Source of the DNA: Microbacterium testaceum
Lineage (GTDB): Bacteria > Actinomycetota > Actinomycetes > Actinomycetales > Microbacteriaceae
Assembly: GCF_029761935.1 (NCBI RefSeq)
Contig: NZ_CP121699.1
Span: 310,001-374,000 of the forward strand
Direction: 5' to 3'
DNA: 64,000 nucleotides
The notes under the pieces are model-generated. The model saw nothing but the letters and a program-made list of their open reading frames with translations, made no database searches and was not told the origin of the DNA. The stretch's first letter is position 1. The number at the start of each line of letters is the position of its first letter. A program made the position numbers and the translations under genes. This document shows, piece after piece, positions 1 to 64,000 of this stretch.

Positions 1-674
1 CCCTGCGGCACGACGGGGGCGCGCACGACGAGCGTGAACGCCGACGGGGTGAACACGATGAGGTCGCTTTCGGCGAGGCGGGTGGACTCGACGACGCGGA
101 TGCCGTGCACCTTGTCGTCGACGAGGGCGCCCGCGTCAAGGAGGTCGGTGTAGACCGAGGCGCCCGCGGCGGCGATAAGCGGCGCGTCGGCGCCGACGCC
201 GTTGCTGCGGAGGAGGCGACGGGCGCTGCTGATCGCCTTAGCCGGGTTGGTGCCGGAGTAGGTCACGCCGGTCTCGGCGGGCGTCGCCGACATTGTCGCG
301 GCGGTGAGTGCCTCGATCTTGGCGGCGATGGCGCGGGCCTGCGGGGCGAGCACTTGCCGTCCGTAGTTCGCGATGTTGAGGGAGAGGTCGCCCTCGGACA
401 GGATCGCAAGGTTGTAGAGGTGATCGGCGAGGGTGACGTCGATGTGCTGCTCGGTGAGCTCGTCGGCGACGAGCGCGGTCGTCTTATCGAAGATGTCCCT
501 GCTGCGGGTAGGGATCGCTGCGGGGACGGGGACGCGGACGGTGGCGCCTTGGCCGGGGTGAAACTCCGCCGCCACGTCGCTTGAGATGAGTGAGGCGAGG
601 TTGAAGTCAGCGCCAACGAGCTTGGCGGCGATGATGGCGACGTTGTTGATGTCGAGGTTGAATTCGTTTGCCAT
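1..674 (-). CDS. Major capsid protein, P22 coat-like, N-terminal 224 residues (runs off left edge)
   Basis: The frame is open from an ATG at 674 to the window edge, starting MANEFNLDINNVAIIAAKL. It is preceded by AGGAAAG about nine bases upstream, a good ribosome binding site. The repeated VPVP and a long acidic segment followed by a helical region with LSEGDLSLNIANYGRQVL resemble the P22-type coat family found in actinophages, an HK97-fold shell protein. Only the N-terminal half or so is visible. It is co-oriented with the integrase and sits only about 1.7 kb past it, with no terminase, portal or protease gene between, which is unusual for a complete prophage. Capsid assignment is by family resemblance; an unrelated structural protein is less likely. 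Confidence 0.7.
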   Translation of the reverse strand, partial: MANEFNLDINNVAIIAAKLVGADFNLASLISSDVAAEFHPGQGATVRVPVPAAIPTRSRDIFDKTTALVADELTEQHIDVTLADHLYNLAILSEGDLSLNIANYGRQVLAPQARAIAAKIEALTAATMSATPAETGVTYSGTNPAKAISSARRLLRSNGVGADAPLIAAAGASVYTDLLDAGALVDDKVHGIRVVESTRLAESDLIVFTPSAFTLVVRAPVVPQ

Positions 675-1029
675 AGGTGGCTTTCCTAGTGGAGTCGGGG
701 CGCGGGTGCGCCGGGATGAGGGATGGTGGATGGCCGTGCCTTGACGGCGGACGCGTCGCGCCTTGGCGACGTATCAGGGGGGTGCCCGGGTGATCTGTCG
801 GGTGCGCGGGCCTTGCCGTGCGGTAACGGTGAGCTGGGCGGGGAGCGTGAGCTCGCTGCGGGTGGCGGCGAGGTTTACACGGCGTGCCCGCCGTCCCTCG
901 TGCGTTAGCTAGGCGCGGTGCGGCGGGCGGGCGGAACGTGTCGCCGGGTGGCGGCACGAGAAACTTGGGCGGACGGCTCCCGTCAGGAGATACCGCCCCG
1001 TGTGCCAGGCGTGCCCGGAGAGCGAAGAG
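675..1029. other. Gene-free stretch inside the element
   Basis: About 355 bases separate the capsid start from the zinc-finger stop. Open frames here (for example minus 957-607 and plus 723-908) are rich in Arg, Pro and His, lack a ribosome binding site and look like composition shadows. The capsid promoter should lie here but no clear -35/-10 pair was found. Confidence 0.5.
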
Positions 1030-1251
1030 CTAGGGGGCGAGGAGCGCGACGGCGGACCGTGCGATTCGCTCGAGGGCTATGACGTCGCCACTCGAGAGTG
1101 CGCGCTCGGCATCGGCGGCGAGGTCGGCGCGGGCGGCGATGCGGCCCTCGCGGCGGTGCGCGACACGGCAGGCGGCGCGGCAGAACTTCCCGGGCTGGGA
1201 GAGGTTGGCGGCGCGTCCGCATCGCGCGCAGGCAACGGAGTATCGGGCCAT
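1030..1251 (-). CDS. Small zinc-finger protein of the element (73 aa)
   Basis: The ATG at 1251 is preceded by GAGGAG eight bases upstream, which supports this start over the much longer open frame that extends upstream. The protein has a CARC pair near residue 8 and an FCRAAC pair near residue 23 followed by a basic stretch, then a helical acidic-basic tail. The C-x2-C and C-x3-C spacing matches the short zinc-binding motif common in small actinobacterial and phage proteins of the type CxxC...YCSxxCRxxAYR. A nucleic-acid binding or regulatory role is plausible but not shown. It lies between the 244-aa gene and the capsid gene, same strand. Confidence 0.65.
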   Translation of the reverse strand: MARYSVACARCGRAANLSQPGKFCRAACRVAHRREGRIAARADLAADAERALSSGDVIALERIARSAVALLAP

Positions 1252-1306
1252 GCGGTGACTCCTCAGTTCGTGGGCGGCGTACGTACGCCCGGAGAGCGAA
1301 TGAAAT

Positions 1307-1330
1307 AGCCTCGACGGCGTCGTCGAGGCT
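1307..1330 (-). terminator. Intrinsic terminator after the 244-aa element gene
   Basis: A perfect 10-bp stem (AGCCTCGACG with its complement) closes a four-base loop. Read on the minus strand it is followed by ATTTCATT. It lies about 100 bases past the stop of the 1434-2168 gene. Confidence 0.6.
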
Positions 1331-1433
1331 TTCGGGCGTGCCCGAGCGGCCAGGCGGGTAAGTCTCTCGGTAACCGGGAGATGTTTCCTTGGGTCATTAG
1401 AAGATGACGCCCGGGTGCTCACGCGACCGCGGA

Positions 1434-2168
1434 CTATGTGCGGTGCGTGCGGACGAGCTCGGCGAGTGCTTCGGGCGGCACACCGATGAGGGCGGCGACG
1501 CGCTCGAGGTCGGGGCCGGTTGCGACCACGAACGCGAGTGCGGGTCGGTAGTAGTCCTCTCCGCGGAGGCGGCGGGTCGGTCCCCATCGGCGTGCGGCGA
1601 GCGCGCGCAGGGCGTCGGCGCTGAGGTCGCCGGGTGAGCCCGCGAGGATGTAGGCGCGCACAAGGTCGGGTCGCTTAATTCGATCGTCGGCGTCGTGCAG
1701 CGCAAGCCAGGCCGACGGGAGCTCTCGTGCCTCGAGAACGGGGTCGACGGGGAGGTGCTCGGCAACGCGTGCGGCGAGTACGGCGGCGGCCTCGGGTGCG
1801 GCGTGAATCGCGGCAGCGGTCGCGCGAAGGGAGGCGCGGAGGGCGGGAGTTGCGCCAACCTTGTCGAGCTCCTCCGAGAACGAGAAGAGGTCGTCGGCGT
1901 AGCCGTCGAACGAGGCGGCGATGAGAGTGGCGAGCTCGTCGAGGAGCACAGCGAGCACGCCCGCGGGACTCTCGGCACCGTTGCGGGCGAGTGCCGACGG
2001 TAGGCCTGGGGTGCGCGTGTATCCGCGCGCGGCGAACACTTCCGCGATCAATTCGGCGTCGAGCTTGTCGAGCGGCCATGCGGCGCCGGTCGGGGGTAGC
2101 GGCCACGGCGACGAGGCGGGCTCGTCGGCCCACGCAAGGAGGCGTGGGGTTGTAGTGAGGTTTTCCAT
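1434..2168 (-). CDS. Uncharacterised element protein, 244 aa
   Basis: I do not recognise this protein. It starts MENLTTTPRLLAWADEPASS and is acidic, alanine- and leucine-rich and probably helical, with no signal peptide, membrane segment or cysteine motif. The C-terminal 25 residues (PDLERVAALIGVPPEALAEL) look like a short helix-turn-helix or degron-like helical unit. No convincing Shine-Dalgarno sequence precedes the ATG; instead it shares a 16-17 base upstream motif with the integrase gene. It is the first gene after the integrase in transcription direction and ends at a clear terminator, so it is likely its own unit. A replication, regulatory or cargo role are all possible. Confidence 0.6.
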   Translation of the reverse strand: MENLTTTPRLLAWADEPASSPWPLPPTGAAWPLDKLDAELIAEVFAARGYTRTPGLPSALARNGAESPAGVLAVLLDELATLIAASFDGYADDLFSFSEELDKVGATPALRASLRATAAAIHAAPEAAAVLAARVAEHLPVDPVLEARELPSAWLALHDADDRIKRPDLVRAYILAGSPGDLSADALRALAARRWGPTRRLRGEDYYRPALAFVVATGPDLERVAALIGVPPEALAELVRTHRT

Positions 2169-2173
2169 GATCG

Positions 2174-2190
2174 GAGAGGACGCCTCAACC
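2174..2190 (-). repeat. Motif shared upstream of the 244-aa gene and of the integrase
   Basis: On the minus strand the sequence GGTTGAGGCGTCCTCTC lies just before the 244-aa start. It recurs at 4117-4132 before the integrase as GGTTGGGCGTCCTCTC, differing by one missing base. The position before two element genes suggests a common regulatory site or a shared untranslated leader. Confidence 0.45.
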
Positions 2191-2390: not shown

Positions 2391-2424
2391 TGCCTGAGGC
2401 AGGTTCTACGGCATCCTCTCGGGC

Positions 2425-4074: not shown

Positions 4075-4084
4075 GGTCGGGGGC

Positions 4085-4122: not shown

Positions 4123-4132
4123 ACGCCCAACC

Positions 4133-4158: not shown

Positions 4159-4773
4159 ATCCTCGACGAGGGCGGCGAGTTCCCGGCATCCGTTCTCGAC
4201 GCCCTTCGTCAGCCCCTCGAGAACGGCGTGATTCAGGTGCACCGCTCCGGGGTCTCGGCAACGTACCCCGCGCGGTTTCAGCTCGTGGTGGCCACGAACC
4301 CCTGCCCGTGCGGCCAATACGGCGTCCCGGGTGGATCCTGCGAGTGCGCTCCGCAGGCGATACGTCGATACACGCGGCGCCTCTCGGGCCCGCTTCTCGA
4401 TCGGATCGACATCGACCTGCGGCTGCAGCGCGTGTCCACCGCCCGGCACGAGAGCAGTTCCCGGACGGTGTCCTCGGAACGCGCGCGCGAGATCGTTGCC
4501 GCCGCCCGTGCGCAAGCCGCTCGACGGTGGGCCCAGACGCCCTGGAGGCGCAACGCCGATGTGCCGGGCACGTGGTTGCGCGGCCGGGCCGCCCCGTCGC
4601 CCGAAGTCCTGCGTCCTCTTGACACCGCCCTGCGCCGCGGCGCGTTGACCCTGCGCGGATACGACCGCCTGCTCCGCGTGGCGTGGACGGTCGCCGACAT
4701 CGCCGGACACGAACAGCTCCGGTCCGACGATGTGGGCCGCGCCCTCTACCTGCGCCGAGGTGCGGGCGCATGA
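4156..4773 (+). pseudogene. comM: comM (YifB, Mg-chelatase-like AAA+ ATPase), 3' fragment cut by the element
   Basis: ComM is a hexameric helicase that promotes branch migration during natural transformation. The visible 205 residues begin at the Walker B region (ILDEGGEFPASVLDALRQPL) and continue through NPCPCG and the sensor/arginine region to the C-terminal Mg-chelatase-like domain. The Walker A half, which is normally about 300 residues upstream, is missing and would lie beyond the element to the left. The fragment has no ribosome binding site of its own and an in-frame TAG directly upstream. Its stop overlaps the dprA start (ATGA), so transcription of dprA would normally come from the comM operon and is probably also affected by the insertion. 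Confidence 0.9.
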
Positions 4774-6004: not shown

Positions 6005-7000
6005 ATGCAGTTGTCGGAGGCCGTCGCGGGATATCTCTCCCACCTGTCCGACGTGCGCCGACTCTCCCCGGCGACGGTGCGGGCCTACCGCGCGGATCTC
6101 GCGGACCTGATCCTGTGGGTCGGCGATCGCCCCCTGGGCGAGGTCGGCGTGGAGGACCTGCGCGAATGGCAGTGGCAGTCGGCCAAGTCGGGGCAGTCCA
6201 AGGCCACCGCCGCGCGTCGCGCGTCGACGGTGCGGGGGCTGTTCGCCTGGGCCGTCGAGGAAGAGTTGGTCAGGGTGGACCCGGCGCAGAGGCTGGTGTC
6301 TCCGAAACGCGGGCGCACCCTCCCCGCCGTCGCGACCACCGACGCGCTCGACGACGTCCTGACCGCGGCGGCCGAGCGCGCGGCGAGTGGCGATGCCGTG
6401 GCACTCCGAGACCACGCCCTCCTGGAGGTGCTCTACGGATCGGGCGCGCGCGTCTCCGAGGTGTGCGGTCTCGACCTCGACGATATCGATCACGATCGAC
6501 GCACCCTGTTCCTGCGCGGCAAGGGCGGCAAGGACCGCGTCGTGCCGTTCGGACTCCCCGCCGCTCGCGCGCTGCAGGCCTACCTGGTGCGGGCCCGTCC
6601 CATCCTGCAGGCACGCCGGGTCGAGGCATCCGCATCTCCCGCATCCGGGTCGCGCCACGACGGAAGCGGGAGTGGCTCCCGCATTCCCGCCCGCGAAGCC
6701 GGGGCTGCGACGCGCCCGCACGAGCGCGCCGTGTTCCTGGGGGCGAAGGGCTCGCGTCTCGGGCCGAGAGTCGTGCACGCCCTCGTGTCGAGAACCGTGG
6801 CGCCGAGCGTGGGAGCGGACGTGCTCGGGCCGCACGCTCTGCGGCACTCTGCCGCGACCCATCTGCTCGACGGGGGCGCCGATCTGCGCTCCGTGCAGGA
6901 GATCCTCGGCCACGCGAGTCTGGGCACCACGCAGATCTACACCCATGTCTCCGCCGAGCGCCTCCGCGAGGCCTACCGACTCGCGCACCCGCGCGCTTGA
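6005..7000 (+). CDS. xerC: Tyrosine recombinase XerC
   Basis: XerC resolves chromosome dimers at dif together with XerD at the division septum. The N-terminal SAM-like core-binding domain covers about residues 1-90 and the catalytic domain 105-325. All catalytic residues are present: Arg149 in GSGARVSE, Lys173 in GKGGKDR, His277 and Arg280 in HALRHS, His303 in LGHASLG and the nucleophile Tyr312. At 331 aa it is longer than the usual 295-310 because of a Ser/Gly/Ala/Arg-rich linker at about residues 204-240. The start is the ATG at 6005; the ribosome binding site is only a G-run. It lies 63 bases after dprA, the usual actinobacterial order. Confidence 0.95.
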   Translation: MQLSEAVAGYLSHLSDVRRLSPATVRAYRADLADLILWVGDRPLGEVGVEDLREWQWQSAKSGQSKATAARRASTVRGLFAWAVEEELVRVDPAQRLVSPKRGRTLPAVATTDALDDVLTAAAERAASGDAVALRDHALLEVLYGSGARVSEVCGLDLDDIDHDRRTLFLRGKGGKDRVVPFGLPAARALQAYLVRARPILQARRVEASASPASGSRHDGSGSGSRIPAREAGAATRPHERAVFLGAKGSRLGPRVVHALVSRTVAPSVGADVLGPHALRHSAATHLLDGGADLRSVQEILGHASLGTTQIYTHVSAERLREAYRLAHPRA

Positions 7001-7794: not shown

Positions 7795-8298
7795 TCACCT
7801 CTCGCAGCAGGGCAGCAGCACCGCTCGCGGGACGCCGCCCAGCAGCCGCAGCGGATTCACGTACTCACCGTTCCACCGCACCCCGAAGTGGACGGTCGCG
7901 GGGCCGGCGTGCCCACCGTCGTCCACCCGCCCCACCGGTGACGCGCGCGCGACGAAAGCACCCACATTCAGGTCGGTGACCACGGGTTCCAGCGTCGTCA
8001 CGAGGCCGTCGCCGTGGTCGATGGTCACGATGTCGCGCCCGGCTACGGCCCCCACGAAGGCGACGCGGCCATCCGCGGGGGACCGGACCGAATCTCCCGC
8101 GAGATCGAGCCCGCGGTGACCCGGACCGTACAAGTGAGCAGGGGCGATGAACGGCCGCACCACCCGGGCCGGAATCGCGGGCCACACCCAGGCGAGGTCG
8201 CCGAGCGGGTCGCCGTCGGACGCTTCAGCGGGCGGCGAGACGAGGAGCGTCGCCGTCAGAAGGGCGAGAGTGATGAGGCGGGCGGATGCCGGGATCAT
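7795..8298 (-). CDS. Secreted M23-family metallopeptidase (LytM-like)
   Basis: M23 peptidases cut peptidoglycan cross-bridges. Starting at the ATG at 8298 (GGGAGAG upstream) the protein is 167 aa, with a signal peptide (MIPASARLITLALLTATLL... ending PPAEAS). The M23 core follows: GHRGLDLAGD, a GRVAFVG turn, DHGDGLVTTLEP and a final TVHFGVRWNG. The GHRGLDL His and Asp and the His of VHFGVR match the zinc ligands; the second catalytic His normally seen just before is less clear, so activity is not certain. It is a common neighbour between xerC and rpsB in this family. The longer upstream open frame is not supported. Confidence 0.85.
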   Translation of the reverse strand: MIPASARLITLALLTATLLVSPPAEASDGDPLGDLAWVWPAIPARVVRPFIAPAHLYGPGHRGLDLAGDSVRSPADGRVAFVGAVAGRDIVTIDHGDGLVTTLEPVVTDLNVGAFVARASPVGRVDDGGHAGPATVHFGVRWNGEYVNPLRLLGGVPRAVLLPCCER

Positions 8299-8395: not shown

Positions 8396-8613
8396 TATGC
8401 TGGAGGACGCATCTCGCATGTCGGGATGACTCCGCGTGCCCACAGCGCATCGCGCCGCCCTCCGGGGCAGCGCACCGCGCGGCATCCACACCCCCTGGTC
8501 CTCCGCTTCAGCGGATGGCGGGTGTGCGCCGGGTACCAGGCTCGTCAGACGGATCGTCTGGCGCGAACAACCACAACCACGGTGCGAAAGCGCCCAGAAA
8601 CAGGAGTACGACC
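8396..8613 (+). promoter_or_regulatory. rpsB promoter and structured 5' leader
   Basis: TATGCT at 8396-8401 is a good -10 candidate and would give a leader of about 205 bases. The leader contains the stem CAGACG-GAT-CGTCTG (8546-8560) and other GC-rich inverted segments before the AGGAG ribosome binding site at 8602. Long leaders before rpsB often serve S2 autoregulation; here that is inference. Confidence 0.4.
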
Positions 8614-9486
8614 ATGGCCGTCGTCACCATCCGCCAGCTGCTCGACAGCGGCGTTCACTTCGGACACCAGACCCGCCGGTGGAACCCGAAGGTGAAGCGC
8701 TTCATTCTGACCGAGCGCTCGGGCATCCACATCATCGACCTCCAGCAGTCGCTCGGCTACATCGACAAGGCGTACGAGTTCGTCAAGGAGACCGTCGCGC
8801 ACGGCGGCACCATCCTCTTCGTCGGCACCAAGAAGCAGGCGCAGGAAGTCCTCGCCGAGCAGGCGACCCGCGTGGGCCAGCCCTACGTCAACCAGCGCTG
8901 GCTCGGTGGCCTCCTCACCAACTTCCAGACGGTGTCGAAGCGCCTCGCCCGCATGAAGGAGCTCGAGGAGCTCGACTACGAGAACCCGGCCGAGAGCGGC
9001 TTCACCAAAAAGGAGCTCCTGCTCAAGAAGCGCGAGCTCGACAAGCTGCACAAGTCGCTCGGTGGTATCCGCAACCTGCAGAAGACCCCCTCGGCGATCT
9101 GGGTCGTCGACGCCAAGCGCGAGCACCTCGCGGTCGACGAGGCCAAGAAGCTCGGCATCCCCGTGATCGGCATCCTCGACACGAACGCCGACCCCGACGA
9201 GTTCCAGTACCCGATCCCCGGCAACGACGACGCGATCCGCTCGGTGAGCCTGCTCACGCGCATCATCGCCGACGCCGCCGCCGAGGGCCTCATCCAGCGC
9301 CACCAGCCCGCCGGTGAAGAAGAGGCCGCCGAGCCCCTCGCCGAGTGGGAGCGCGAGCTGCTCGAGACCCCCGCCGAGTCGACCGACGAGGCTCCCGCCG
9401 CTGAGGCGACCGAGGCCCCGGCCGCCGAGTCGACCGAGGCCGCCGAGACCGAGGCCGCTGACGCCGAGGCAACCGACAGCAAGTAA
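8614..9486 (+). CDS. rpsB: 30S ribosomal protein S2
   Basis: S2 binds late at the head-body junction of the small subunit and is needed for S1/mRNA recruitment. The 290-aa product starts [20 protein letters not shown], and contains the family motifs [27 protein letters not shown] and [10 protein letters not shown]. The conserved core ends at about residue 240. A 45-residue tail of Glu/Ala/Thr repeats follows, as often seen in actinobacterial S2. The start is fixed by AGGAG ten bases upstream. It is followed by tsf after 153 bases, as in most bacteria. Confidence 0.98.
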
Positions 9487-10496: not shown

Positions 10497-10528
10497 GGCC
10501 CGGGATGCCACGGCATCCCGGGCCTTTT
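10497..10528 (+). terminator. tsf intrinsic terminator
   Basis: An 11-13 bp stem (GGCCCGGGATGCC with its complement) is followed by TTTT. The two arms carry GGATGCC and GGCATCC as an inverted pair. Confidence 0.9.
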
Positions 10529-13591: not shown

Positions 13592-13624
13592 CCCCGACGC
13601 GTGGCATCCGGCCTCGGGCGTCGG

Positions 13625-14354: not shown

Positions 14355-14363
14355 GCGGCATCC

Positions 14364-29723: not shown

Positions 29724-32183
<2,460 letters not shown>

Positions 32184-45023: not shown

Positions 45024-45071
45024 GCACAGCCCGACCGCACCGGGAGACCGGATGCCGAGCGCCGCACGGTT

Positions 45072-53433: not shown

Positions 53434-53468
53434 GGATGCCTCGGCGCCGGCTGAGCGTCGAGGCATCC
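53434..53468 (-). terminator. Terminator after the ABC permease gene
   Basis: GGATGCCTCG and CGAGGCATCC form a perfect 10-bp stem around a 15-base loop between the permease stop (53482) and the mscS promoter. The arms again hold the GGATGCC/GGCATCC pair. Confidence 0.55.
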
Positions 53469-53481: not shown

Positions 53482-54285
53482 TCAGGCGTCGCGCGAGCGG
53501 AGCGCGATCCACCCGAGCAGAAGGGGCCCGATCACCCACCCGGCCATCGTGAGCGCGGGCTCCATCAGGTCGGTCGCCCCGGCCCGGGTGAGGCTGCCGG
53601 CTGCGCTGACCGGAAGGTAGGTGCCCGCCTCGACGACCCACATCCAGTCGGGGCCCGCGATCGAGAACAGGCTCAGCATGATGGGCAGCACGAAGAGCAC
53701 TCCCACCGTGACGGCGATCGCACCTGCGCCGCTGCGCAGGACGAAACCGAAGCCGACGCCCATGAGGGTGAAGCAGGCCATCGAGAGCACGCCGAGGGCG
53801 AGGGGCACGATCGAGTCGGCCGGCGTCGCCCAGTCGATGCCCGTGCCGCCCAGCAGGGGAGCGGTCGCGGCGATGGCGACGGCGTAGATGATCACGGTGG
53901 TCACCATCATCGTCACGGCCACGACGAGCGCCTTCGCCAGCAGCACGGCACCGCGACGGGGCTCCGCGGTGAGCGTCGAGCGGATCATCCCGGTGGAGTA
54001 CTCCCCGGTCACGACGATCGCGCCGAGGATGCCGGCCACGAGCATCGTGAACTGGGTGGGCGCGAGGATGACGTTCGTCGGCTCCATCCCCCCGCCCTTG
54101 CCGCTCGTGGCGAGCGCGATGAGCAGCGAGATCCCCACCGACAGCGCGGCGGTGACCCCGAGCGACCACCAGGTCGAGCGGAGCGTGAGGATCTTGATCG
54201 CCTCGCTCCTCAGCAGGTGCGCGAAGCTCAGGCGCGGGGTGCTCGGGTGCGTCGCCCGGCGGGGCGCGGCGGCGAGGGCGGTCAT
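53482..54285 (-). CDS. ABC-2 type exporter permease
   Basis: The 267-aa protein has six hydrophobic segments with a soluble, basic N-terminus (residues 1-35), and the ABC-2 pattern of FTMLVAGILGAIVVTGEYSTGM, which is typical of permeases for antibiotics, lipids or other small hydrophobic exports. Its ATG overlaps the ATPase gene stop (ATGA). The substrate is unknown; no adjacent biosynthetic or regulatory gene helps. Confidence 0.9.
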   Translation of the reverse strand: MTALAAAPRRATHPSTPRLSFAHLLRSEAIKILTLRSTWWSLGVTAALSVGISLLIALATSGKGGGMEPTNVILAPTQFTMLVAGILGAIVVTGEYSTGMIRSTLTAEPRRGAVLLAKALVVAVTMMVTTVIIYAVAIAATAPLLGGTGIDWATPADSIVPLALGVLSMACFTLMGVGFGFVLRSGAGAIAVTVGVLFVLPIMLSLFSIAGPDWMWVVEAGTYLPVSAAGSLTRAGATDLMEPALTMAGWVIGPLLLGWIALRSRDA

Positions 54286-55193
54286 GCGATCTCCTTGGTC
54301 TTGTACTCGACGGAGTCGTCGGTCAGGGCGAGATAGGCGTCCTCGAGGGAGCCGACGCGCGGGCTGAGTTCGTAGAGGGGGATGCCGCGGGCGGCGGCGA
54401 TGTCGCCGACCGTTTCGGCCGTGATCCCGGTGATCTGCGCCGCGCCCGGCTCGACGGCCGAGACGGTGGCATCCGGGATCTCGAGGGCGGTGACGAGTTC
54501 GCCGAGGCGGGGGGAGCGCACGAGCAGGGTGGTCGTGGTCCAGGTGCGGACGAGGTCAGGGAGGGCCGCGTCGGCGAGCACGCGTCCGCGCCCCAGCACG
54601 ATCACGTGATCGGCGGTCTGCGACATCTCGCTCATGAGGTGGCTCGACAGCAGGACCGTTCGACCCTCGCCCGCGAGATGGCGCACGAACTGGCGCACCC
54701 AGCGGACGCCCTCGGGATCGAGGCCGTTGACCGGTTCGTCGAGGATCAGCGTGTGCGGGTCGCCGAGCAGGGCGGCCGCGATGCCGAGGCGCTGACCCAT
54801 GCCGAGCGAGAAACCACCCGCGCGCTTGCCGGCCACCGATCCGATGCCGGTGAGCTCGATCACCTCGTCGACGCGGGCGTTCCCGATGCCGTGCGTCGCG
54901 GCCATGGCGCGAAGGTGGTTGCGCGCCGATCGGCCGGTGTGGATGGCTTTCGCGTCGAGCAGGACGCCGACCTCGGTGAGGGGCGAGCGAAGGTGCCGGT
55001 AGTCCTGGCCGCCCACGGTCACGCGGCCGGCGGTCGGGCGGTCGAGGCCGACGATCATGCGCATCGTGGTGGACTTCCCCGCACCGTTGGGTCCGAGGAA
55101 GCCGGTCACCCGCCCAGGGGCCACCGTGAACGAGACGCCGTCGACGGCGGTCTTGTCGCCGTACCGCTTGGTGAGGTTGTCTGCAACGATCAT
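54282..55193 (-). CDS. ABC exporter ATP-binding protein
   Basis: The 303-aa ATPase has Walker A GPNGAGKSTTM, the Q-loop, the signature LGMGQRLGIAAALLGDP (here starting FSLGMGQR in place of LSGGQ), Walker B LILDEPVNGLDPEG and the switch His in SSHLMSEM. A C-terminal extension of about 90 residues is typical of DrrA-like exporters. The ATG follows TAGCGT (55200-55205, minus) by six bases. It forms a two-gene exporter with the permease. Confidence 0.93.
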   Translation of the reverse strand: MIVADNLTKRYGDKTAVDGVSFTVAPGRVTGFLGPNGAGKSTTMRMIVGLDRPTAGRVTVGGQDYRHLRSPLTEVGVLLDAKAIHTGRSARNHLRAMAATHGIGNARVDEVIELTGIGSVAGKRAGGFSLGMGQRLGIAAALLGDPHTLILDEPVNGLDPEGVRWVRQFVRHLAGEGRTVLLSSHLMSEMSQTADHVIVLGRGRVLADAALPDLVRTWTTTTLLVRSPRLGELVTALEIPDATVSAVEPGAAQITGITAETVGDIAAARGIPLYELSPRVGSLEDAYLALTDDSVEYKTKEIA

Positions 55194-55277: not shown

Positions 55278-55309
55278 GGATGCCCCCTCCCGAGGGGGAG
55301 AGGGCATCC
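55278..55309 (-). terminator. pepN terminator
   Basis: GGATGCCC and GGGCATCC pair around an inner CCTCCCGAGG-type hairpin just past the pepN stop. The outer arms hold the GGATGCC/GGCATCC pair. Confidence 0.65.
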
Positions 55310-55323: not shown

Positions 55324-57873
55324 TTACTGGGCGTCGCGCTCCTGGACCGCCAGCGCGCGCTCGACGCCGGCGAGGTTCTCACCGACGAGGCGACGAAGCG
55401 CGGGGGCGGCGTCGGCGTTCTGCGACAGCCACTGACGCGTCGCGTCGCGCAGCGCCTTGTTCGCCAGGGCGGCGGGATACAGGCCCACGATCAGGTACTG
55501 CGCGATCTGGTAGCTGCGCGACTCCCAGATGGGCAGCAGCATCGCGAAGTAAGGCTCGACGAAGTCGGCGAGCACGTCGACCGTCGTCGGGTTCGTGAAG
55601 CCCGAGGCCGTCGACCGAACGATCGTGTTCGGCGCGTCGGCGCGCTCGATGAGCGAGTCCCACGCCTCCTGCTTCGCCGCGTGCGAGGGGAGCGACGCCT
55701 TGGCCATGGCCGCGAACTCCCCGCCCTTCGCCGTGTTGTCCGCGGCGCGCGCCTCGTCGATGTCGGCCGCCGTGACCACGCCCGCGGAGGCGAGCGAGAC
55801 CAGGAGCTGCCACGACAGGTCGGTGTCGATCGCGAGGCCCTCGAGTGTCGTGTCGCCGTCGCGGAGGGCGCGGACCGTCTCGGCGTGGGCCGGGGTGGAG
55901 GCCGCCGAGGCGAACGCCGTCACGAACTGCAGCTGGCTGTCGCTGCCGGCCTCGGCCTTCTGCGCCAGCTCCCACAGGCCGTCGGCCACGCGCTCGCGCG
56001 CCGCGTCACGGGTCGCGGGGGCGACGTACGAGTTCGCGGCGAGCTGCAGCTGGCCCAGCGTCGTGCGCACCGTAGTCGATTCGGTCTCGGAGCCGATGTT
56101 CTGCAGGACGAGGTCGAGGTAATCGGTGGCCGAGGCCTCGGCATCCCGAGTCTGATCCCACGCCGCACCCCACACGAGCGAACGCGCGAGCGGGTCGGAG
56201 ATGTCCTTCAGGTGCGCGATCGCGGTGGCCAGCGAGCGCTCGTCGAGACGGATCTTCGCGTAGGCGAGGTCATCGTCGTTGAGCAGCACGAGGTCGGGAC
56301 GACGGATGCCACGGAGCTCGGCGACCTCGGTACGGTCGCCGTCGACGTCGATCTCGACGCGGTGGACGCGCTCGAGCGAGCCCGACTCGGTCACCGAGTA
56401 GAAGCCCACGCCCAGGCGGTGCGGGCGGATGGTGGGGTAGTCGGCAGGGGCGGTCTGCACGATGGCGAAACGCGTGATCGTGCCGTCCGCTCCCTCTTCG
56501 ATGAGCGGGGTGAGCGTGTTGACACCCGCCGTCTCGAGCCACTTCTTGGCCCAGTCGCCCAGGTCGCGACCGCTGGTGGCCTCGAGCTCGACGAGCAGGT
56601 CGCCGACCTCGGTGTTCGACCACTGGTGCTTCTGGAAGTACGCGGCCACGCCCGCGAAGAACTGCTCGATACCCACCCAGGCGGCGAGCTGCTTCAGCAC
56701 GGAGCCGCCCTTGGCGTAGGTGATGCCGTCGAAGTTCACCTGCACGTCTTCGAGGTCGTTGATCTCGGCGACGACCGGGTGGGTCGAGGGGAGCTGGTCC
56801 TGGCGGTACGCCCAGGTCTTCTCCATCGCGTTGAAGGTCGTCCAGGCGGCCTCCCACTCGGTGGCCTCGGCGGTGGCGATCGTGGAGGCCCACTCGGCGA
56901 ACGACTCGTTCAGCCAGAGGTCGTTCCACCACTTCATGGTGACGAGGTCGCCGAACCACATGTGCGCGAGCTCGTGGAGGATCGTCACGACGCGACGTTC
57001 CTTCACGGCATCCGTCACCTTGCTGCGGAAGACGTAGGTCTCGGTGAAGGTGACCGCACCCGCGTTCTCCATCGCGCCGGCGTTGAACTCAGGGACGAAG
57101 AGCTGGTCGTACTTGGCGAACGGGTAGGGGAAGCCGAACTTCTCCTCGAAGTACGCGAAGCCCTGACGGGTCTTCTCGAACACGTAGTCGGCGTCGAGGT
57201 ACTGCCACAGGCTCTTGCGGGCGAAGACGCCGAGGGGGATGACGCGGCCGTCGGCGCTCGTGAGCTCGCTGTAGGTCGCCTCGTAGGGACCCGCGACGAG
57301 AGCGGTGATGTACGAGGAGATGCGCGGAGTGGCGGGGAAGTCCCAGCGGGCGGTGTCATCAGAGACGGCGACCGGCTCAGGCGTGGGGGAGTTGGAGACG
57401 ACCTTCCAGCGCGCGGGGGCGGTGACCGAGAAGGTGAACGCGGCCTTGAGGTCGGGCTGCTCGAACACGGTGTACATGCGGCGCGAGTCGGGCACCTCGA
57501 ACTGCGAGTAGAGGTAGACCTCTCCGTCGACGGGGTCGACGAAGCGATGCAGACCCTCACCGGTGTTGGTGTATTCGCAGTCGGCCTCGACGACGAGCTC
57601 GTTCTCGGCCGCGAGGTCGTCGAGCGCGATGCGCGAGTCGCCGAAGACGGCGGCGGGGTCGAGCGAGCGGCCGTTGAGGGTGATGGCGTGCACGGTGCGC
57701 GCGATCAGGTCGATGAAGGTCGACGCGCCCTCGGTGGCGGCGAAGGTCACGACGGTGCGCGAGGCGAAGACCTCGTCTCCGCGCGTGAGGTCGAGCTGCA
57801 CGTCGTAGGAGTGCGTGTCGACGATCGCGCGACGCTCCTGCGCTTCGATGCGGGTGAGGTTCTCTCCTGGCAC
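55324..57873 (-). CDS. pepN: Aminopeptidase N (M1 family)
   Basis: PepN removes N-terminal residues from peptides in the cytoplasm. From the GTG at 57873 (GGGAG upstream) the product is 849 aa, the usual length for actinobacterial PepN. It has the substrate motif GAMEN (266-270), the zinc site HELAH (300-304) with the third ligand Glu323 in NESFAEW, and a large helical C-terminal ERAP1-like domain. The open frame continues far upstream on the antisense of the ferrochelatase gene, which is a shadow. It is divergent from the ferrochelatase gene. Confidence 0.96.
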   Translation of the reverse strand: MPGENLTRIEAQERRAIVDTHSYDVQLDLTRGDEVFASRTVVTFAATEGASTFIDLIARTVHAITLNGRSLDPAAVFGDSRIALDDLAAENELVVEADCEYTNTGEGLHRFVDPVDGEVYLYSQFEVPDSRRMYTVFEQPDLKAAFTFSVTAPARWKVVSNSPTPEPVAVSDDTARWDFPATPRISSYITALVAGPYEATYSELTSADGRVIPLGVFARKSLWQYLDADYVFEKTRQGFAYFEEKFGFPYPFAKYDQLFVPEFNAGAMENAGAVTFTETYVFRSKVTDAVKERRVVTILHELAHMWFGDLVTMKWWNDLWLNESFAEWASTIATAEATEWEAAWTTFNAMEKTWAYRQDQLPSTHPVVAEINDLEDVQVNFDGITYAKGGSVLKQLAAWVGIEQFFAGVAAYFQKHQWSNTEVGDLLVELEATSGRDLGDWAKKWLETAGVNTLTPLIEEGADGTITRFAIVQTAPADYPTIRPHRLGVGFYSVTESGSLERVHRVEIDVDGDRTEVAELRGIRRPDLVLLNDDDLAYAKIRLDERSLATAIAHLKDISDPLARSLVWGAAWDQTRDAEASATDYLDLVLQNIGSETESTTVRTTLGQLQLAANSYVAPATRDAARERVADGLWELAQKAEAGSDSQLQFVTAFASAASTPAHAETVRALRDGDTTLEGLAIDTDLSWQLLVSLASAGVVTAADIDEARAADNTAKGGEFAAMAKASLPSHAAKQEAWDSLIERADAPNTIVRSTASGFTNPTTVDVLADFVEPYFAMLLPIWESRSYQIAQYLIVGLYPAALANKALRDATRQWLSQNADAAPALRRLVGENLAGVERALAVQERDAQ

Positions 57874-57999: not shown

Positions 58000-59187
58000 G
58001 TGAGCACGACCGACACGGACACCAGCCCTGAGACCGTCCTCTACGCGTCGCCCGCCGCGGCGTCCGGACCCAAGTGGGTCGAGACGCCGGTGGCGTACGA
58101 CGGCATCCTCCTCGCCGGCTTCGGCGGGCCCGAGGGTCAGGACGACGTCATCCCGTTCCTGCGCAACGTGACGCGTGGGCGCGGCATCCCCGATGAGCGA
58201 CTCGAAGAGGTCGCCCACCACTACCGTCACTTCGGCGGCGTCAGCCCGATCAATCAGCACAATCGCGAGCTCAAGGCCGCCCTCGAGGCTGAGATCGCCA
58301 AGCGCGGACTGGGTCTGCCCGTGTACTGGGGCAACCGCAACTGGTCGCCGTACCTCGAAGAGGCCGTCACCGAGGCGGCCGAGGCGGGCGATACGACCCT
58401 CCTCGCGATCGCGACCAGCGCCTACAGCTCGTTCTCGAGCTGCCGTCAGTACCGCGAAGACTACGCCCGTGTGCTCGAGGCGACCGGTCTCGGCGAGACG
58501 GTGACGATCGACAAGGTCCGTCAGTTCTTCGACCACCCGGGCTTCGTGAGCACCTTCGTCCGGGGCGTGACGGATGCCGTCTCGGCCTACGTCGCCGACG
58601 GGATCGCGCCCGAGAAGATCCGCGTGCTCTTCTCCACGCACTCCATTCCGAGCGCCGACGCGGAGCGTTCCGGCCCTCGCGACGTCGAGTTCGGAGAGGG
58701 CGGGGCCTACGAGGCGCAGCACAAGGCCGTCGCCGCCTTCGTCATGGCCGAGGTCGCCGCCGCCGTCGCCGACGTCGAGTGGGAGCTCGTGTACCAGTCG
58801 CGCTCGGGCCCGCCCACGCAGCCCTGGCTCGAGCCCGATGTCAACGACGTGATCGCGGAGCTTCCCGGCCGCGGCGCCGAGGCGGTCGTCATCGTGCCCC
58901 TCGGTTTCGTCAGCGACCACATGGAGGTGCTCTGGGACCTCGACACCGAGGCCATGGAGGCCGCCGAAGAGGCGGGCATCCGTGCGGTGCGGACGCCCAC
59001 GCCGGGCATCGACCCCGCGTACGTCTCGGGTCTGGTCGACCTGGTCGAGGAGCGGCTGAAGGGCACGCCGAAGGCGGAGCGCCCCCACCTGACCGACCTG
59101 GGCCCCTGGTACGACGTGTGCCGCCCGGGGTGCTGCGAGAACATCCGGGCCGGTTTCAAGCCGGTCGCCGCAGGTCTGCGTCCCTGA
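58000..59187 (+). CDS. cpfC: Coproporphyrin ferrochelatase
   Basis: In actinobacteria this enzyme inserts iron into coproporphyrin III. The 395-aa protein has the ferrochelatase core with GGPEGQDDVIPFLRNV, GGVSPINQHNREL, a His in VLFSTHSIP and Glu/His sites near SRSGPPTQPWLEPDV and GFVSDHMEVLWDLD. The C-terminus carries CRPGCCENIRAGFKP, cysteines expected to bind a [2Fe-2S] cluster with one earlier Cys. GAGGA seven bases before the GTG at 58000 favours this start over the GTG at 57994. Also named hemH. Confidence 0.95.
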   Translation: MSTTDTDTSPETVLYASPAAASGPKWVETPVAYDGILLAGFGGPEGQDDVIPFLRNVTRGRGIPDERLEEVAHHYRHFGGVSPINQHNRELKAALEAEIAKRGLGLPVYWGNRNWSPYLEEAVTEAAEAGDTTLLAIATSAYSSFSSCRQYREDYARVLEATGLGETVTIDKVRQFFDHPGFVSTFVRGVTDAVSAYVADGIAPEKIRVLFSTHSIPSADAERSGPRDVEFGEGGAYEAQHKAVAAFVMAEVAAAVADVEWELVYQSRSGPPTQPWLEPDVNDVIAELPGRGAEAVVIVPLGFVSDHMEVLWDLDTEAMEAAEEAGIRAVRTPTPGIDPAYVSGLVDLVEERLKGTPKAERPHLTDLGPWYDVCRPGCCENIRAGFKPVAAGLRP

Positions 59188-59819: not shown

Positions 59820-60811
59820 TGCCCGAGGGGCATTCCGTCCACCGCATCGCGCGGCAGTTCGACCGCAACATCGTGGGACGCACGGTCTCGGCATCCAGTC
59901 CCCAGGGGCGTTTCGTCGAAGGTGCCTCGGTCATCGACGGCCGCGAGGCGCTCGAGGTGCGGGCCGTGGCGAAGCAGATGTTCCTCCGCTTCGACGGAGA
60001 CGTGTGGCTGCGCGTGCACCTCGGCATGTACGGCGCCTGGGACTTCTCGGGCGAGGTGGTCGTCGATGCGACCATCGCCTCGGCCAACGGCCGCATGGGC
60101 CAGACGAATCAGCGCGGCACGGTCGTCGACGACGAGCCGATCCTGGATACAGCGGGCGAGAACTCCCTGACCTCGATCGGCGCACCACGTCGCACGCGCG
60201 TGCGCATGTCGGAGCAGACGACGGGGCTCGAGGAGCAGAACGAGTGGCCGCCGCCGGTGGTCGGTCAGGTGCGCTTGCGCCTGCTCACCGATAACACGTG
60301 CGCCGACCTGCGCGGACCGACAGCCTGCGTGCTGCAGACACCCGACGAGGTGCAGGCGACCATCGCGAAGCTCGGGCCCGACCCCCTCGTCGACGACCTC
60401 GCAGAGGGCGAGGAGCGCTTCACCGCCACGGTGCGCAAGAAGCCCACGCCCATCGGTCTGCTGCTGATGGACCAGGCCGTCGTGAGCGGCATCGGCAACG
60501 TGTACCGCGCCGAGCTGCTGTTCCGCGCGCGGCAGAACCCCCACACGCCGGGTCGCGACGTACCCGAAGAGGTCGTGCGGGGCATCTGGCGCGATTGGGC
60601 GACGTTGCTGCCGATCGGTGTCGAGACCGGTCAGATGATGACGATGGACGGGCTCGACCCCGCCGCCTATCGCCGCGCGATGGCGCGCCGCGCCGACCGG
60701 CACTGGGTCTACCACCGCGAAGGACTGCCCTGCCGCGTGTGCGGAACCGCGATCGTCATGGAAGAAGCCGCCGGGCGCAAGCTGTACTGGTGCCCGAAGT
60801 GCCAGGCGTGA
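59819..60811 (+). CDS. Fpg/Nei-family DNA glycosylase
   Basis: The 330-aa protein removes damaged bases and cuts the abasic site. It starts MPEGHSVHRIARQF, with Pro2 as the nucleophile and Glu3, as in Nei. The helix-two-turn-helix is in DQAVVSGIGNVYRAELLFRA, and the zinc finger ends with CRVCGT and CPKC. MPEGHS and the insert around residues 100-140 point to the actinobacterial Nei2 group rather than MutM. It is translated with rpiB. Confidence 0.93.
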   Translation: MPEGHSVHRIARQFDRNIVGRTVSASSPQGRFVEGASVIDGREALEVRAVAKQMFLRFDGDVWLRVHLGMYGAWDFSGEVVVDATIASANGRMGQTNQRGTVVDDEPILDTAGENSLTSIGAPRRTRVRMSEQTTGLEEQNEWPPPVVGQVRLRLLTDNTCADLRGPTACVLQTPDEVQATIAKLGPDPLVDDLAEGEERFTATVRKKPTPIGLLLMDQAVVSGIGNVYRAELLFRARQNPHTPGRDVPEEVVRGIWRDWATLLPIGVETGQMMTMDGLDPAAYRRAMARRADRHWVYHREGLPCRVCGTAIVMEEAAGRKLYWCPKCQA

Positions 60812-60946: not shown

Positions 60947-61573
60947 GTGCGTCAGAATCCGAGCTTCACGATGACCGACGTCGGTGAGATCCGTCGTCTC
61001 ATCGACCTCAACCCCTGGGTCACCCTCGTCAGTCAGACCGACGACGGTCTCGTCGCCTCGCACTACGCGGTCATGCTCGACGACACCCGCGACGACCTCA
61101 CGATCGTGGGCCATGTCGGCAAGCCCGACGACGCGATCCTCGGTCTCGGCGACCGGGAACTGCTCGTCGTCGTCCAGGGCCCCCACGGCTACATCACGCC
61201 GCGGTGGTACGGGGACGTCCCTGCCGTGCCGACGTGGAACTTCGTGTCGGCGCACCTCAGCGGCATCCCGGAACTTCTCTCTCCGGAAGAGAACCTGCGG
61301 GTACTCGAGCGCCTGGTGGAGCGTTTCGAGGGAGATGGTGACGACGCGAGAGGGCTGTACGCGGTGCCCAACGACGCCGCCTTCGTCGAAAGGCTCGAAC
61401 GCGGGACCATGGGGTTCCGCCTCACGCCGACGCGGGTGACGGCGAAGCGCAAGCTCAGCCAGAACCGTCCCGCGGAGGTCGTCGAGACGATCATCGACGG
61501 TCTGACCGCCGAGGGGCGCCACGAGCTCTCCGTCGAGATGCGTCGCGCCGCCGACGCGCGGGTCCGCCCGTGA
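60947..61573 (+). CDS. FMN-binding PaiB-like protein
   Basis: The 208-aa protein has the split-barrel flavin-binding pattern of PaiB: PWVTLVSQTDDGLVASHYAV, a GHVGKPDD turn, then VQGPHGYITPRWYGDVPAVP and TWNFVSAHLSG, and an LSQNRPAEVVETIIDGL end. B. subtilis PaiB is described as a regulator of sporulation and protease genes, but biochemical roles of the family are unclear. Its stop overlaps the amidohydrolase start (GTGA). Confidence 0.9.
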   Translation: MRQNPSFTMTDVGEIRRLIDLNPWVTLVSQTDDGLVASHYAVMLDDTRDDLTIVGHVGKPDDAILGLGDRELLVVVQGPHGYITPRWYGDVPAVPTWNFVSAHLSGIPELLSPEENLRVLERLVERFEGDGDDARGLYAVPNDAAFVERLERGTMGFRLTPTRVTAKRKLSQNRPAEVVETIIDGLTAEGRHELSVEMRRAADARVRP

Positions 61574-63063
61574 TCGGCGAGAACGTCGGGTTTCTCCGCG
61601 CGGTGCGTGTCGCCGGACCCGGACGCGAATTCCTCCCGACGTCCGAGCCCGTCGACATCGTCATCGCCGACGGACGGATCGCCGACATCGCGCCGACCGG
61701 CAACCTGCGGCCCACCGGCGCCGTCCTCGAGGGGGAGGGCGGGTGGCTTCTCCCCGGGCTCTGGGACCACCACGTGCACGTGCTCCAGTGGGCCCTCGCG
61801 GCGGATCGCGTGCCCCTCGGCGAGGTGGCGAGCGCGCGCGACGCCGCCACGATCATGGCGCTCGCCCCCGAGTCCGACGGCCGCCGGGTCGGTTCCGGAT
61901 TCCGCGACGGGCTCTGGTCCGATGTGCCGAGCCTGGAGTTGTTGGATGCCACCACCGGGGGCGTGCCGACGTACCTGATCAACGCCGACGTCCACAGCGT
62001 GTGGATGAACACGGCGGCCTTCCGACGCGAGGACTTCGAGCCCGTGGCATCCGGGATGCTCGTCGAAGAGGACGCGTTCGAGATCTCGCGCCGTGTGAAC
62101 GCCGTCGAGGCCGACGTCGCCGACGCCGCCGTGGAGCGCATGGCCCGCGCGGCCGCGGCTCGCGGGGTCGTGGGTCTCGTCGACCTCGACATGACCTGGA
62201 ACGACGCCCCCTGGCAGCGGCGAGCGGCGCGCGGATTCGACACCCTGCGCATCTCGTACGGCACGTACCCGCAGGACCTGGATCGGGCCATCGCCGAGGG
62301 CCTTCGCACGGGCGACCCCGTGAGGGGATCGTCGAACGGTCTCGTGCGGGTCGGGCCGCTCAAGGCGATCACCGACGGCTCGCTGGGCACCCGCACCGCG
62401 GCGTGCGCCCACCACTATCCGGGCGACACCGGCAACCACGGGTTGCTGACCGTCCCGCCGGAGGAGCTCGTCGACATGATGACGCGGGCCACGGCGGCCG
62501 GACTCGAATGCGCGATCCACGCCATCGGCGACGTGGCGAACGCCCACGCGCTCGACGCGTACGCCCTCACCGGCGCGGTGGGCACCATCGAACACGCGCA
62601 GCTCGTCGCGCACGCCGACATTCCGCGCTTCGCCCGTCTGGGGGTCGCCGCGAGCGTGCAGCCCGAGCACGCGCTCGACGATCGGGACATGACGGATGCC
62701 ATCTGGGCCGAGCAATCCGCGCAACCCTACCCGCTACGGGCCCTGGCCGACAGCGGCGCGAACCTGCGCTTCGGTTCGGACGCGCCCGTCGCGCCCCTCG
62801 ACCCCTGGGCCGCGATGGCGTCGGCCGTGTTCCGCACGCGCGACGGACGCGACGCGTGGCAGCCGCACCAGCGGGTCGACATCGACACGGCGATCGCGGC
62901 CTCGACGGCGGGGGGATCGACCGCACCCGCCGAGATCTCACCGGGTGCCGTCGCCGATCTCGTCATCGTCGGGGCCGACCCGCTGACCGCCGACGAGCGT
63001 GGACTGCGCGCGATGCCCGTCCGTGCGACGCTGCTCGCGGGTCGCGTCACGCACGGCGCCTGA
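61570..63063 (+). CDS. Amidohydrolase family protein (YtcJ-like)
   Basis: The 497-aa protein has the amidohydrolase-3 pattern: LLPGLWDHHVHVLQWAL with the first metal His pair (as in GLxDxHxH), VDLDMTWNDAP, a C-terminal IHAIGDVANAHALDAYAL with another His and FGSDAPVAPLDPW with the catalytic Asp. It is likely a metal-dependent hydrolase of an N-acyl or amide bond; the substrate is unknown. The GTG start overlaps the PaiB-like stop, suggesting coupled expression. Confidence 0.88.
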   Translation: MIGENVGFLRAVRVAGPGREFLPTSEPVDIVIADGRIADIAPTGNLRPTGAVLEGEGGWLLPGLWDHHVHVLQWALAADRVPLGEVASARDAATIMALAPESDGRRVGSGFRDGLWSDVPSLELLDATTGGVPTYLINADVHSVWMNTAAFRREDFEPVASGMLVEEDAFEISRRVNAVEADVADAAVERMARAAAARGVVGLVDLDMTWNDAPWQRRAARGFDTLRISYGTYPQDLDRAIAEGLRTGDPVRGSSNGLVRVGPLKAITDGSLGTRTAACAHHYPGDTGNHGLLTVPPEELVDMMTRATAAGLECAIHAIGDVANAHALDAYALTGAVGTIEHAQLVAHADIPRFARLGVAASVQPEHALDDRDMTDAIWAEQSAQPYPLRALADSGANLRFGSDAPVAPLDPWAAMASAVFRTRDGRDAWQPHQRVDIDTAIAASTAGGSTAPAEISPGAVADLVIVGADPLTADERGLRAMPVRATLLAGRVTHGA

Positions 63064-63146: not shown

Positions 63147-63192
63147 CGCGGCGGAGGGGTGGGGGAGCGGGAGACGTGCCGGAACGACGAAG

Positions 63193-63216
63193 GGGGCGGT
63201 GCCGAAGCACCGTCCC
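63193..63216 (-). terminator. dps terminator
   Basis: On the minus strand GGGACGGTGC-TTCG-GCACCGCCCC forms a 10-bp stem with a stable TTCG loop, shortly after the dps stop at 63231. Confidence 0.75.
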
Positions 63217-63230
63217 ATTCGAGGAAAGTC

Positions 63231-63716
63231 TTACGCGGCGAGGTGCGCGAACAGGAACCAACGGTCCTTGTCGAGACCGCGCTTGATCTCGATCGCCACA
63301 TCCTGGCTCGACATGTCGATCTCGTCGAGACCCTCGATGGCGGCTTCGATGTCGACGAGCACCGCGTCGATGTCGGCGATCACGGCGCGGATGACCACGT
63401 CGGACTGCGCGAAACCAGCGGGGATCTCAGTGGCCTTCGCCTTGGCGGCGACGGTCGACAGGCGCGAGTCGATGGGAAGACCCAGCGCGACGATGCGCTC
63501 AGCGGCCAGGTCGGCCCACTCCTGCGCGTGAGCGACAACCGAGTCGAGCAGCTCGTGCACGCCGATGAAGTTGGCGCCGCGGACGTGCCAGTGCGCCTGC
63601 TTGCCGTTGACGACGAGCGCCTCGAGGCCGATGACGACGGGGGAGAGGAACTGGGCGGTGCCGGCGGCCATCGTCGGGTCGACGGTGGTGGCGGCGGGGG
63701 TCTGGACGGTGCTCAT
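63231..63716 (-). CDS. dps: Dps family ferritin-like DNA/iron protein
   Basis: Dps dodecamers oxidise and store iron and protect DNA from peroxide. The 161-aa protein has the ferroxidase motif AHWHVRGANFIGVHELLD with His, His and Asp ligands across subunits, followed by AQEWADLAAERIVALG with Glu. The C-terminus lacks a long basic tail, so DNA binding is uncertain. AAGGAG stands six bases before the ATG. A weak DtxR-like site lies about 80 bases upstream. Confidence 0.94.
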   Translation of the reverse strand: MSTVQTPAATTVDPTMAAGTAQFLSPVVIGLEALVVNGKQAHWHVRGANFIGVHELLDSVVAHAQEWADLAAERIVALGLPIDSRLSTVAAKAKATEIPAGFAQSDVVIRAVIADIDAVLVDIEAAIEGLDEIDMSSQDVAIEIKRGLDKDRWFLFAHLAA

Positions 63717-63790
63717 GGGTGCTCCTTAGGCGACGTTCGAAGTCTCGTTGGATGCAACGCTACTCACGTGGGAGCATTCCGCAAGCAAGA

Positions 63791-63809
63791 TGAGGCTCGG
63801 CTAAATCCC
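63791..63809. promoter_or_regulatory. Weak DtxR/IdeR-box-like site before dps
   Basis: TGAGGCTCGGCTAAATCCC shares about 11 of 19 positions with the DtxR/IdeR consensus, best at GGCTAA. The match is marginal and the position upstream of dps is the main support. Confidence 0.25.
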
Positions 63810-63826
63810 TGGTGAATAGGCAATCC

Positions 63827-64000
63827 TCACCTTCCTTGGTCCCGTCTCAGCCCCAGGGCGAGACCGAGGGTCACCACCGCGGCGGCTCCGGCGACGAGCA
63901 TTCCCCAGGGCGTTGATCGGATGCCGGTCCACGCGAGAGATCCTCCGGTGTGGGCCGGGTCCGCGAGGGTCGGACCGGGCTCTCCGGTCGGAGGGTCGGT
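63827..64000 (-). CDS. Sortase-anchored surface protein, C-terminal 57 residues (runs off right edge)
   Basis: The minus frame from the right edge reads TDPPTGEPGPTLADPAHTGG, then SLAWTG, a hydrophobic helix (MLVAGAAAVVTLGLALGL) and the basic end RRDQGR before TGA at 63829-63827. This is a cell-wall sorting signal: LAWTG matches the LAxTG form used by class E sortases of actinobacteria. Only the tail is visible, so the nature of the anchored protein is unknown. The gene is upstream of dps on the same strand. Confidence 0.8.
   Translation of the reverse strand, partial: TDPPTGEPGPTLADPAHTGGSLAWTGIRSTPWGMLVAGAAAVVTLGLALGLRRDQGR

Follow-up and report, generated by a model that had tools for sequence, protein, structure and literature searches.

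The window analysed here (the whole stretch of 64,000 nucleotides of Microbacterium testaceum, contig NZ_CP121699.1, positions 310,001 to 374,000) carries the heptamer GGATGCC at a density already noted in an initial annotation made from the sequence alone. The over-representation of GGATGCC is genuine: the word is under selection across the whole genome, related genomes use dialects of it, and the spacing between its copies depends on their orientation.

Copies of GGATGCC in the window and the genome

An exact match search for GGATGCC on both strands, on which every row below is based, recovers 82 copies in the window, 37 on the forward and 45 on the reverse strand. The initial annotation, counting by eye, had arrived at about 81, and the first positions that it gave (98, 2410, 4185, 6625 and 8284) are all exact. 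Its expectation of about 15 copies is reproduced when bases are taken as independent (15, a 5.4-fold excess); a first-order Markov chain expects 13.5. The copies are as follows.

98..104, 8284..8290, 15226..15232, 15957..15963, 17347..17353, 17836..17842; forward strand; GGATGCC
21050..21056, 22584..22590, 25441..25447, 26424..26430, 26880..26886, 32060..32066; forward strand; GGATGCC
32989..32995, 34715..34721, 37385..37391, 38030..38036, 38199..38205, 40535..40541; forward strand; GGATGCC
41617..41623, 42941..42947, 43199..43205, 43578..43584, 44375..44381, 45050..45056; forward strand; GGATGCC
50407..50413, 51271..51277, 51628..51634, 54027..54033, 54380..54386, 56304..56310; forward strand; GGATGCC
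58572..58578, 61944..61950, 62694..62700, 63919..63925; forward strand; GGATGCC
2410..2416, 4185..4191, 6625..6631, 8481..8487, 8722..8728, 9154..9160, 9169..9175; reverse strand; GGATGCC
12688..12694, 13603..13609, 14357..14363, 17261..17267, 20495..20501, 21653..21659; reverse strand; GGATGCC
23116..23122, 24831..24837, 24984..24990, 26797..26803, 27111..27117, 29392..29398; reverse strand; GGATGCC
31506..31512, 33995..34001, 35601..35607, 36364..36370, 38069..38075, 38269..38275; reverse strand; GGATGCC
38845..38851, 39781..39787, 42207..42213, 45478..45484, 49126..49132, 51109..51115; reverse strand; GGATGCC
51559..51565, 52720..52726, 54468..54474, 56140..56146, 57007..57013; reverse strand; GGATGCC
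58102..58108, 58183..58189, 58975..58981, 59890..59896, 61262..61268, 62046..62052; reverse strand; GGATGCC
53434..53440 forward with 53462..53468 reverse; inverted pair of GGATGCC
55278..55284 forward with 55303..55309 reverse; inverted pair of GGATGCC
10503..10518 (10503 forward, 10512 reverse); inverted doublet GGATGCC-AC-GGCATCC behind tsf, a GC stem and then TTTT, terminator-like

Sorted by context with a gene caller of our own, 22 copies lie in the frame GGC-ATC-C (about 20 had been estimated), 27 fall on GAT-GCC and 12 on GCA-TCC, the minor codons to which the initial annotation had pointed, 2 have other contexts and 19 are intergenic or partial, in a window with a non-coding share of 12%. 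The earlier figure of about 17 intergenic copies is close to the count, but over a larger stretch there is no intergenic excess: in a 464-kb sample, made up of the window and 20 stretches of 20 kb (431 genes by the same caller, 82% coding), density is 1.45/kb in coding and 1.41/kb in non-coding DNA. CGATGCC is rarer than GGATGCC, as had been claimed (39 against 82); among the one-base neighbors in the window, however, only GGACGCC (40) is more frequent. Inverted doublets with the 9-bp offset seen at 10503 number nine in the 464 kb, and two of these are then followed by a T run.

The element region at 1-4771 is indeed poor in the word: it has 3 copies (two in 4.1 kb had first been reported), and genome density would predict about 7. 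A serine recombinase-like gene at 2425-3948 of the window, with only distant plasmid matches (22-26% identity, 14 records), lies in a word-poor stretch. The stretch 45486-49125, singled out earlier as empty, does lack copies; but it carries ordinary genes (SSB-type, DUF6993, EttA and a thioesterase), and gaps of 3-5 kb are found near their expected frequency (10 of 650 intervals, with 6 expected), so it is not special.

Across the 3.38-Mb single-contig genome GGATGCC occurs 5,137 times, against 349 for the reversed word, at 1.5/kb (1 per 0.66 kb) and with a strand split of 2551 to 2586; the roughly five-fold over-representation first described is thus real and understated. The base that follows is G in 73% and A in 22% of copies (R in 95%). 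This preference for R does not hold in 44 loci of other Microbacterium species (G 75%, C 9%, T 8%, A 7%), which were drawn from 80 loci, less 21 of near relatives of M. testaceum, by requiring GGATGCC to reach at least 3.4 times expectation and at least 0.95/kb.

Excess beyond codon use and conservation of sites

When synonymous codons were shuffled within each gene of the 464-kb sample (30 shuffles), 552 copies were observed against 167.7±9.4 expected, the highest shuffle giving 185; a codon-preserving shuffle with a similar count, which the initial annotation had named as grounds for setting the word aside, was not obtained. This excess is the largest of any 7-mer (z 41), and the next (z 28) belongs to an overlapping word. 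In non-coding DNA, 117 copies are found where a second-order chain predicts 16.5, which is the top ratio once 7-mers below 15 strand counts are set aside.

Selection or drive keeps the word, site by site. The comparison with relatives suggested in the initial annotation was made by projecting 11 of them (83-95% identical) on the window: GGATGCC is intact in 67-92% of aligned cases, whereas composition-matched words are intact in 33-70% and one-base neighbors in 29-65%. Where the amino acid is unchanged, the rare codon GCA survives in 79 of 94 cases within the word (84%) and in 111 of 553 elsewhere (20%); for GAT the figures are 198 of 234 (85%) and 412 of 1294 (32%), respectively. Third codon positions as a class are conserved at 87% within the word and at 68% elsewhere. 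Conservation by position within the word runs from 0.85 to 0.98, with a mean for comparison of 0.85. This pattern appears to exceed what mutation bias alone would give.

Dialects within the family

The distribution of the word in the family is uneven, with counts of GGATGCCR in 398 genomes (85 genera) ranging from below control to about 25 times control; for GGATGCC itself, counts were taken in 35 Microbacterium genomes and in 23 from other families of the order (58 in all). Of 14 single genomes or pairs of genomes sampled for dialects, most of which have little GGATGCC, nine carry a related word in its place, at similar or somewhat lower density. These words are GGATCC in both G220, a member of the same genus with 180 sites over 100 kb, and G091, from a different genus; GGATGGC in G032, GGATGCTG in G436, GGATGCCG and GGATGCGG in G004, GGAGGCG in G166, GGATGCG in G157, GCAGGAG/T in G206 and GGATGCCC in G342. 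G153 has a weak word only (CCGGATC), G002 has GGATGCC itself, and in this sample none was seen in G029, in G177 with G108, or in G277. Single 20-kb samples add GGATCC in G474, G481, G526 and L264 (and, more weakly, in G562 and G588), GGATGCTG in G022, GGATGGC in M. oryzae (L261) and GGATGCG in L260; the remaining short (20-kb) samples gave no clear word.

All nine dialects contain GGA, the weak word of G153 aside, and eight of the nine begin with it. This shared element suggests one recognizer of changing specificity behind the dialects.

A few further samples may be recorded here. In an 80-kb sample of G166, from genus g57, AGGAGGCG reaches 69 strand counts, nine-fold its expectation. One Microbacterium locus (L265) has 0 GGATGCC and 0 GGATCC in 19.5 kb at 65% GC, but chance would give only a few there, so that this does not amount to avoidance. 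G305, which has no strong AdnAB match, shows no strong word in 15 kb, a sample (47% GC) too short to judge.

Orientation and spacing

Neighboring copies of GGATGCC tend to alternate in orientation (397 of 650, against 331±13 in 500 orientation shuffles), and the cause is a mutual avoidance between copies of like orientation. Among pairs 7-300 bp apart in the M. testaceum genome, 86 are in the same and 177 in opposite orientation, with about 142 of each expected (p 2e-8); the 44 loci of other species give 153 and 256, with about 247 of each expected (p 4e-7). These binomial p values take pairs as independent, which they nearly but not quite are, and the 44 loci are not fully independent, some coming from one species (three from M. 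oleivorans). Some named loci also duplicate other genomes in the set, and a 96% filter drops such duplicates from the mixed model (below) only. The same-orientation deficit is absent from all six distinct control words. Along the chromosome the two orientations are, if anything, too well balanced, with a heterogeneity chi-square of 10.9 for 21 stretches (lower-tail p 0.035).

The oriented dialects of seven genomes sum to 112 same-orientation and 172 opposite pairs at 6-300 bp, and a pooled test of four of these genomes gives 87 against 133 (p 0.002). Of the four, the deficit is clear in G166, G157 and G206 and missing from G032; the genomes outside the pooled test give 7 against 12 (G436), 17 against 25 (G004) and 1 against 2 (G342).

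To judge by this statistical signature, the word seems to be read in one direction. A second copy would be redundant only in the same orientation, which points to a reader that translocates one way; neither an orientation-blind receptor nor a methylase would be expected to produce this exclusion.

AdnAB as a candidate reader

The best explanation of GGATGCC is, in our view, that AdnAB, an enzyme that resects DNA ends, responds to it as a Chi-like signal, although we would place the probability of this somewhat below even. AdnAB would enter at a broken DNA end and resect it as a helicase–nuclease; given the mean same-orientation gap of 1.24 kb, it would soon meet the word in the right orientation, where it would stop destroying the DNA and hand the 3' strand to RecA, while DNA without the word would be degraded. 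A broader proposition is possible but more doubtful: the word and its dialects would be the first Chi-like signals for an enzyme of the AdnAB type, dense, without polarity and fast-evolving, and the dialects, by changing within a single genus, would mark self against foreign DNA.

AdnAB is a natural candidate since AdnA has been likened to AddB, the Chi-reading subunit of AddAB (excerpt of PMC4824097). RecBCD is rejected as reader, RecC having been found in 0 of 64 family genomes. AdnA was found in 197 of 198 Microbacterium genomes, and the one miss is a genome 72% complete. In M. testaceum adnA and adnB adjoin at about 139-146 kb of the genome, and their products match two chains of the structures 6ppj, 6ppr, 6ppu and 7sjr (best E 7e-114 and 2e-143), which we take to be mycobacterial AdnAB. 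They are also the only two matches to the PF12705 nuclease in that genome. The adnA gene is 99% identical to the one recorded for M. testaceum StLB037. A search for the nuclease domain in 45 family genomes gave a strong match in all but G305, and both subunits are readable (a few partly) in 42 of 42 loci, these loci having been picked for a match. Two forms of AdnA, about half identical, occur within one genus, one of them with the PF12705 match split in two (L131-L138, others).

Several results weigh against AdnAB. Three genomes that bear it (G177, G277 and G029) have no detected word, and a PF01555 adenine methylase is equally universal (20 of 20 genomes tested). Replichore polarity, in the form of the origin–terminus strand bias suggested in the initial annotation, is absent, the best two-arc split over 21 stretches reaching 53%; a polar word of the KOPS (FtsK-orienting polar sequence) or classical Chi type is rejected on the same ground. 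GGATGGC in G032 shows no orientation effect (18 same, 18 opposite), and the palindrome GGATCC, for which all pairs count as same-orientation, shows no avoidance in the 6 of 8 GGATCC genomes used for the spacing test (1.19 of expected at 6-100 bp and 1.05 at 100-300 bp).

The association of residues with dialect, which was run on 101 and 96 genomes, belongs with these adverse results. AdnA residues 112 and 78 associate with dialect (p about 1e-6). However, in a mixed model that left out ten genomes (outside the genus or incomplete), those lacking a flanking gene and those more than 96% alike, residue 42 of the flanking gene g2290 (p 5e-8) outperforms the best residues of AdnA (6e-7) and AdnB (8e-7). 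Because the flanking gene is stronger and AdnB about equal to AdnA, residue co-variation does not single out AdnAB as the reader, and AdnA residues are not relied on here as determinants of specificity. The g2290 position (L129 from 2290, 485 amino acids, upstream of adnAB) is I or V, and is the one most strongly associated with the GGATGCC index, defined as log2 of observed over expected. R78 of AdnA is found in 15 Microbacterium entries (one genome probably twice), all with an index of at most 0.79 and none above 1.0; most of its carriers form a single clade, however, and beyond Microbacterium R78 occurs in G082 and G342 together with a GGATGCC-type word. R774 and G459 of AdnA are each found in every one of the 8 GGATCC genomes and in 2 of 77 GGATGCC genomes.

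Other explanations

That codon use, mutational bias or a bias of mismatch repair simply produces the word as a side effect is very improbable. Codon use does account for about one third of the coding copies, but it leaves a three-fold excess over the codon shuffle and a seven-fold excess in non-coding DNA; nor would such a side effect explain the additional conservation at synonymous positions inside the word, the orientation-specific spacing, or the finding that alignments in which the word is missing show, in some cases, two or three changed bases at the site. A site for a chromosome-organizing or other DNA-binding protein would fit the genome-wide, strand-balanced distribution and is quite unlikely rather than negligible; the copies, however, show no helical phase at periods of 10, 10.5, 11 and 11.5 (only the codon period of 3 is visible), and taken together they are not more evenly spaced than random (coefficient of variation 1.11). 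It is also conceivable, if rather unlikely, that a conserved orphan methylase has the word, or a part of it, as its target, and that the word is kept by methylation-dependent repair or some chromosome function. PF01555 methylases match in all 20 high-word genomes tested, and that of M. testaceum (317 amino acids, bases 2596161-2597114) is 67-97% identical in the 12 compared among the other 19. It looks orphan, as judged from 4 of the 8 genes in the surrounding 10 kb, the methylase included: a lipoate ligase and an MMPL transporter lie upstream and an LLM oxidoreductase downstream, with no restriction gene among these three annotated neighbors. The GGA shared by the nine dialects would also suit a methylase, and the HIP (highly iterated palindrome) words of cyanobacteria likewise have alternates with matching methylases (excerpt of PMC4390886). 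But methylation offers no reason for same-orientation exclusion, and the same methylase occurs in G004, whose words (GGATGCCG and GGATGCGG) differ. A D12-type (FokI/Dam-like) methylase was rejected as reader, being present in only 3 of 20 high-word genomes. In L266 (4162-5115) the PF01555 adenine methylase gene overlaps the end of a lipoate ligase gene.

An uptake sequence, whereby competent cells would prefer DNA with the word and recombination would then spread it through the genome, is an unlikely reading that nevertheless deserves weight. The density of 1.5/kb over coding and non-coding DNA alike, the inverted doublets (some terminator-like), the lack of strand polarity, the conserved sites and the dialects are all features of such sequences; ComEC is present in 59 of 59 genomes, and a DprA gene lies in the window. 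Uptake is, however, reported to be independent of orientation (PMC1939737) and as such does not predict an exclusion confined to same-orientation pairs. PilT falls below cut-off in 8 of 8 Microbacterium tested; it exceeds the cut-off in 15 genomes selected for their low content of the word, and in 34 of 80 genomes of the family. A type IV pilus as reader is rejected because PilT does not follow the word. ComEC, present with and without the word, is uninformative. The initial annotation had offered uptake, Chi-like and methylation functions together. What stands is a selected genome-wide word, for which the orientation of neighbors favors a Chi-like signal over orientation-blind uptake, and methylation stays among the candidates.

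Relation to known systems

Known Chi words include GCTGGTGG in E. coli, AGCGG in B. subtilis and GAAGCGG in S. aureus (excerpt of PMC8022716). Like the Chi words of RecBCD and AddAB, GGATGCC is short, non-palindromic and over-represented, and its spacing is consistent with one-way reading. It differs in having no leading-strand polarity, whereas E. coli Chi is strongly polar (excerpt of PMC8022716); in being denser, with one copy every 0.66 kb where E. coli Chi has one about every 5 kb; in varying between genera and within one genus; and in the class of the proposed enzyme, AdnAB, for which no Chi was known according to an excerpt of PMC4824097. The response of AdnAB to a Chi-like word was stated there, in 2016, to be unknown, and its counterpart of Chi recognition was still called unclear in 2026 (excerpt of PMC13309787). 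AdnAB is an enzyme with which mycobacteria and streptomycetes resect DNA ends, and a definite candidate word that varies naturally among Microbacterium species makes the Chi question testable.

The uptake sequences of Neisseriaceae and Pasteurellaceae come in dialects. They resemble GGATGCC also in density, in their spread through genes, in forming some inverted doublets and in lacking polarity; GGATGCC differs in excluding same-orientation pairs only and in the below-cut-off PilT of the 8 Microbacterium tested. We know of no uptake word in a Gram-positive genus, and GGATGCC, if it is one, would be such a case. Cyanobacterial HIP1 is comparable in being very frequent, in having alternates in some lineages and in the presence of a methylase (excerpt of PMC4390886), but HIPs are palindromic and GGATGCC, save for the GGATCC dialect, is not; a methylation word would thus be a non-palindromic counterpart of HIP1. 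No report of GGATGCC or GGCATCC as a bacterial word was found in the open-licence literature, among the titles and starts of abstracts listed; a full-text search for either word returned four papers, none of which concerns bacteria to judge by the same parts.

Occurrence in phages

Fourteen Microbacterium phages (695 kb), our own choice from about 116 described (excerpt of PMC7302621), contain 380 GGATGCC against 85 for the control, or 0.55/kb against a codon expectation of 0.44/kb for host genes. In these phages the word is neither avoided nor strongly enriched, and for this lack of avoidance a restriction target is rejected. The smallest phage of the set, VitulaEligans (MH371124, 17.5 kb), carries 21 copies, or 1.2/kb, about twice the average of the set.

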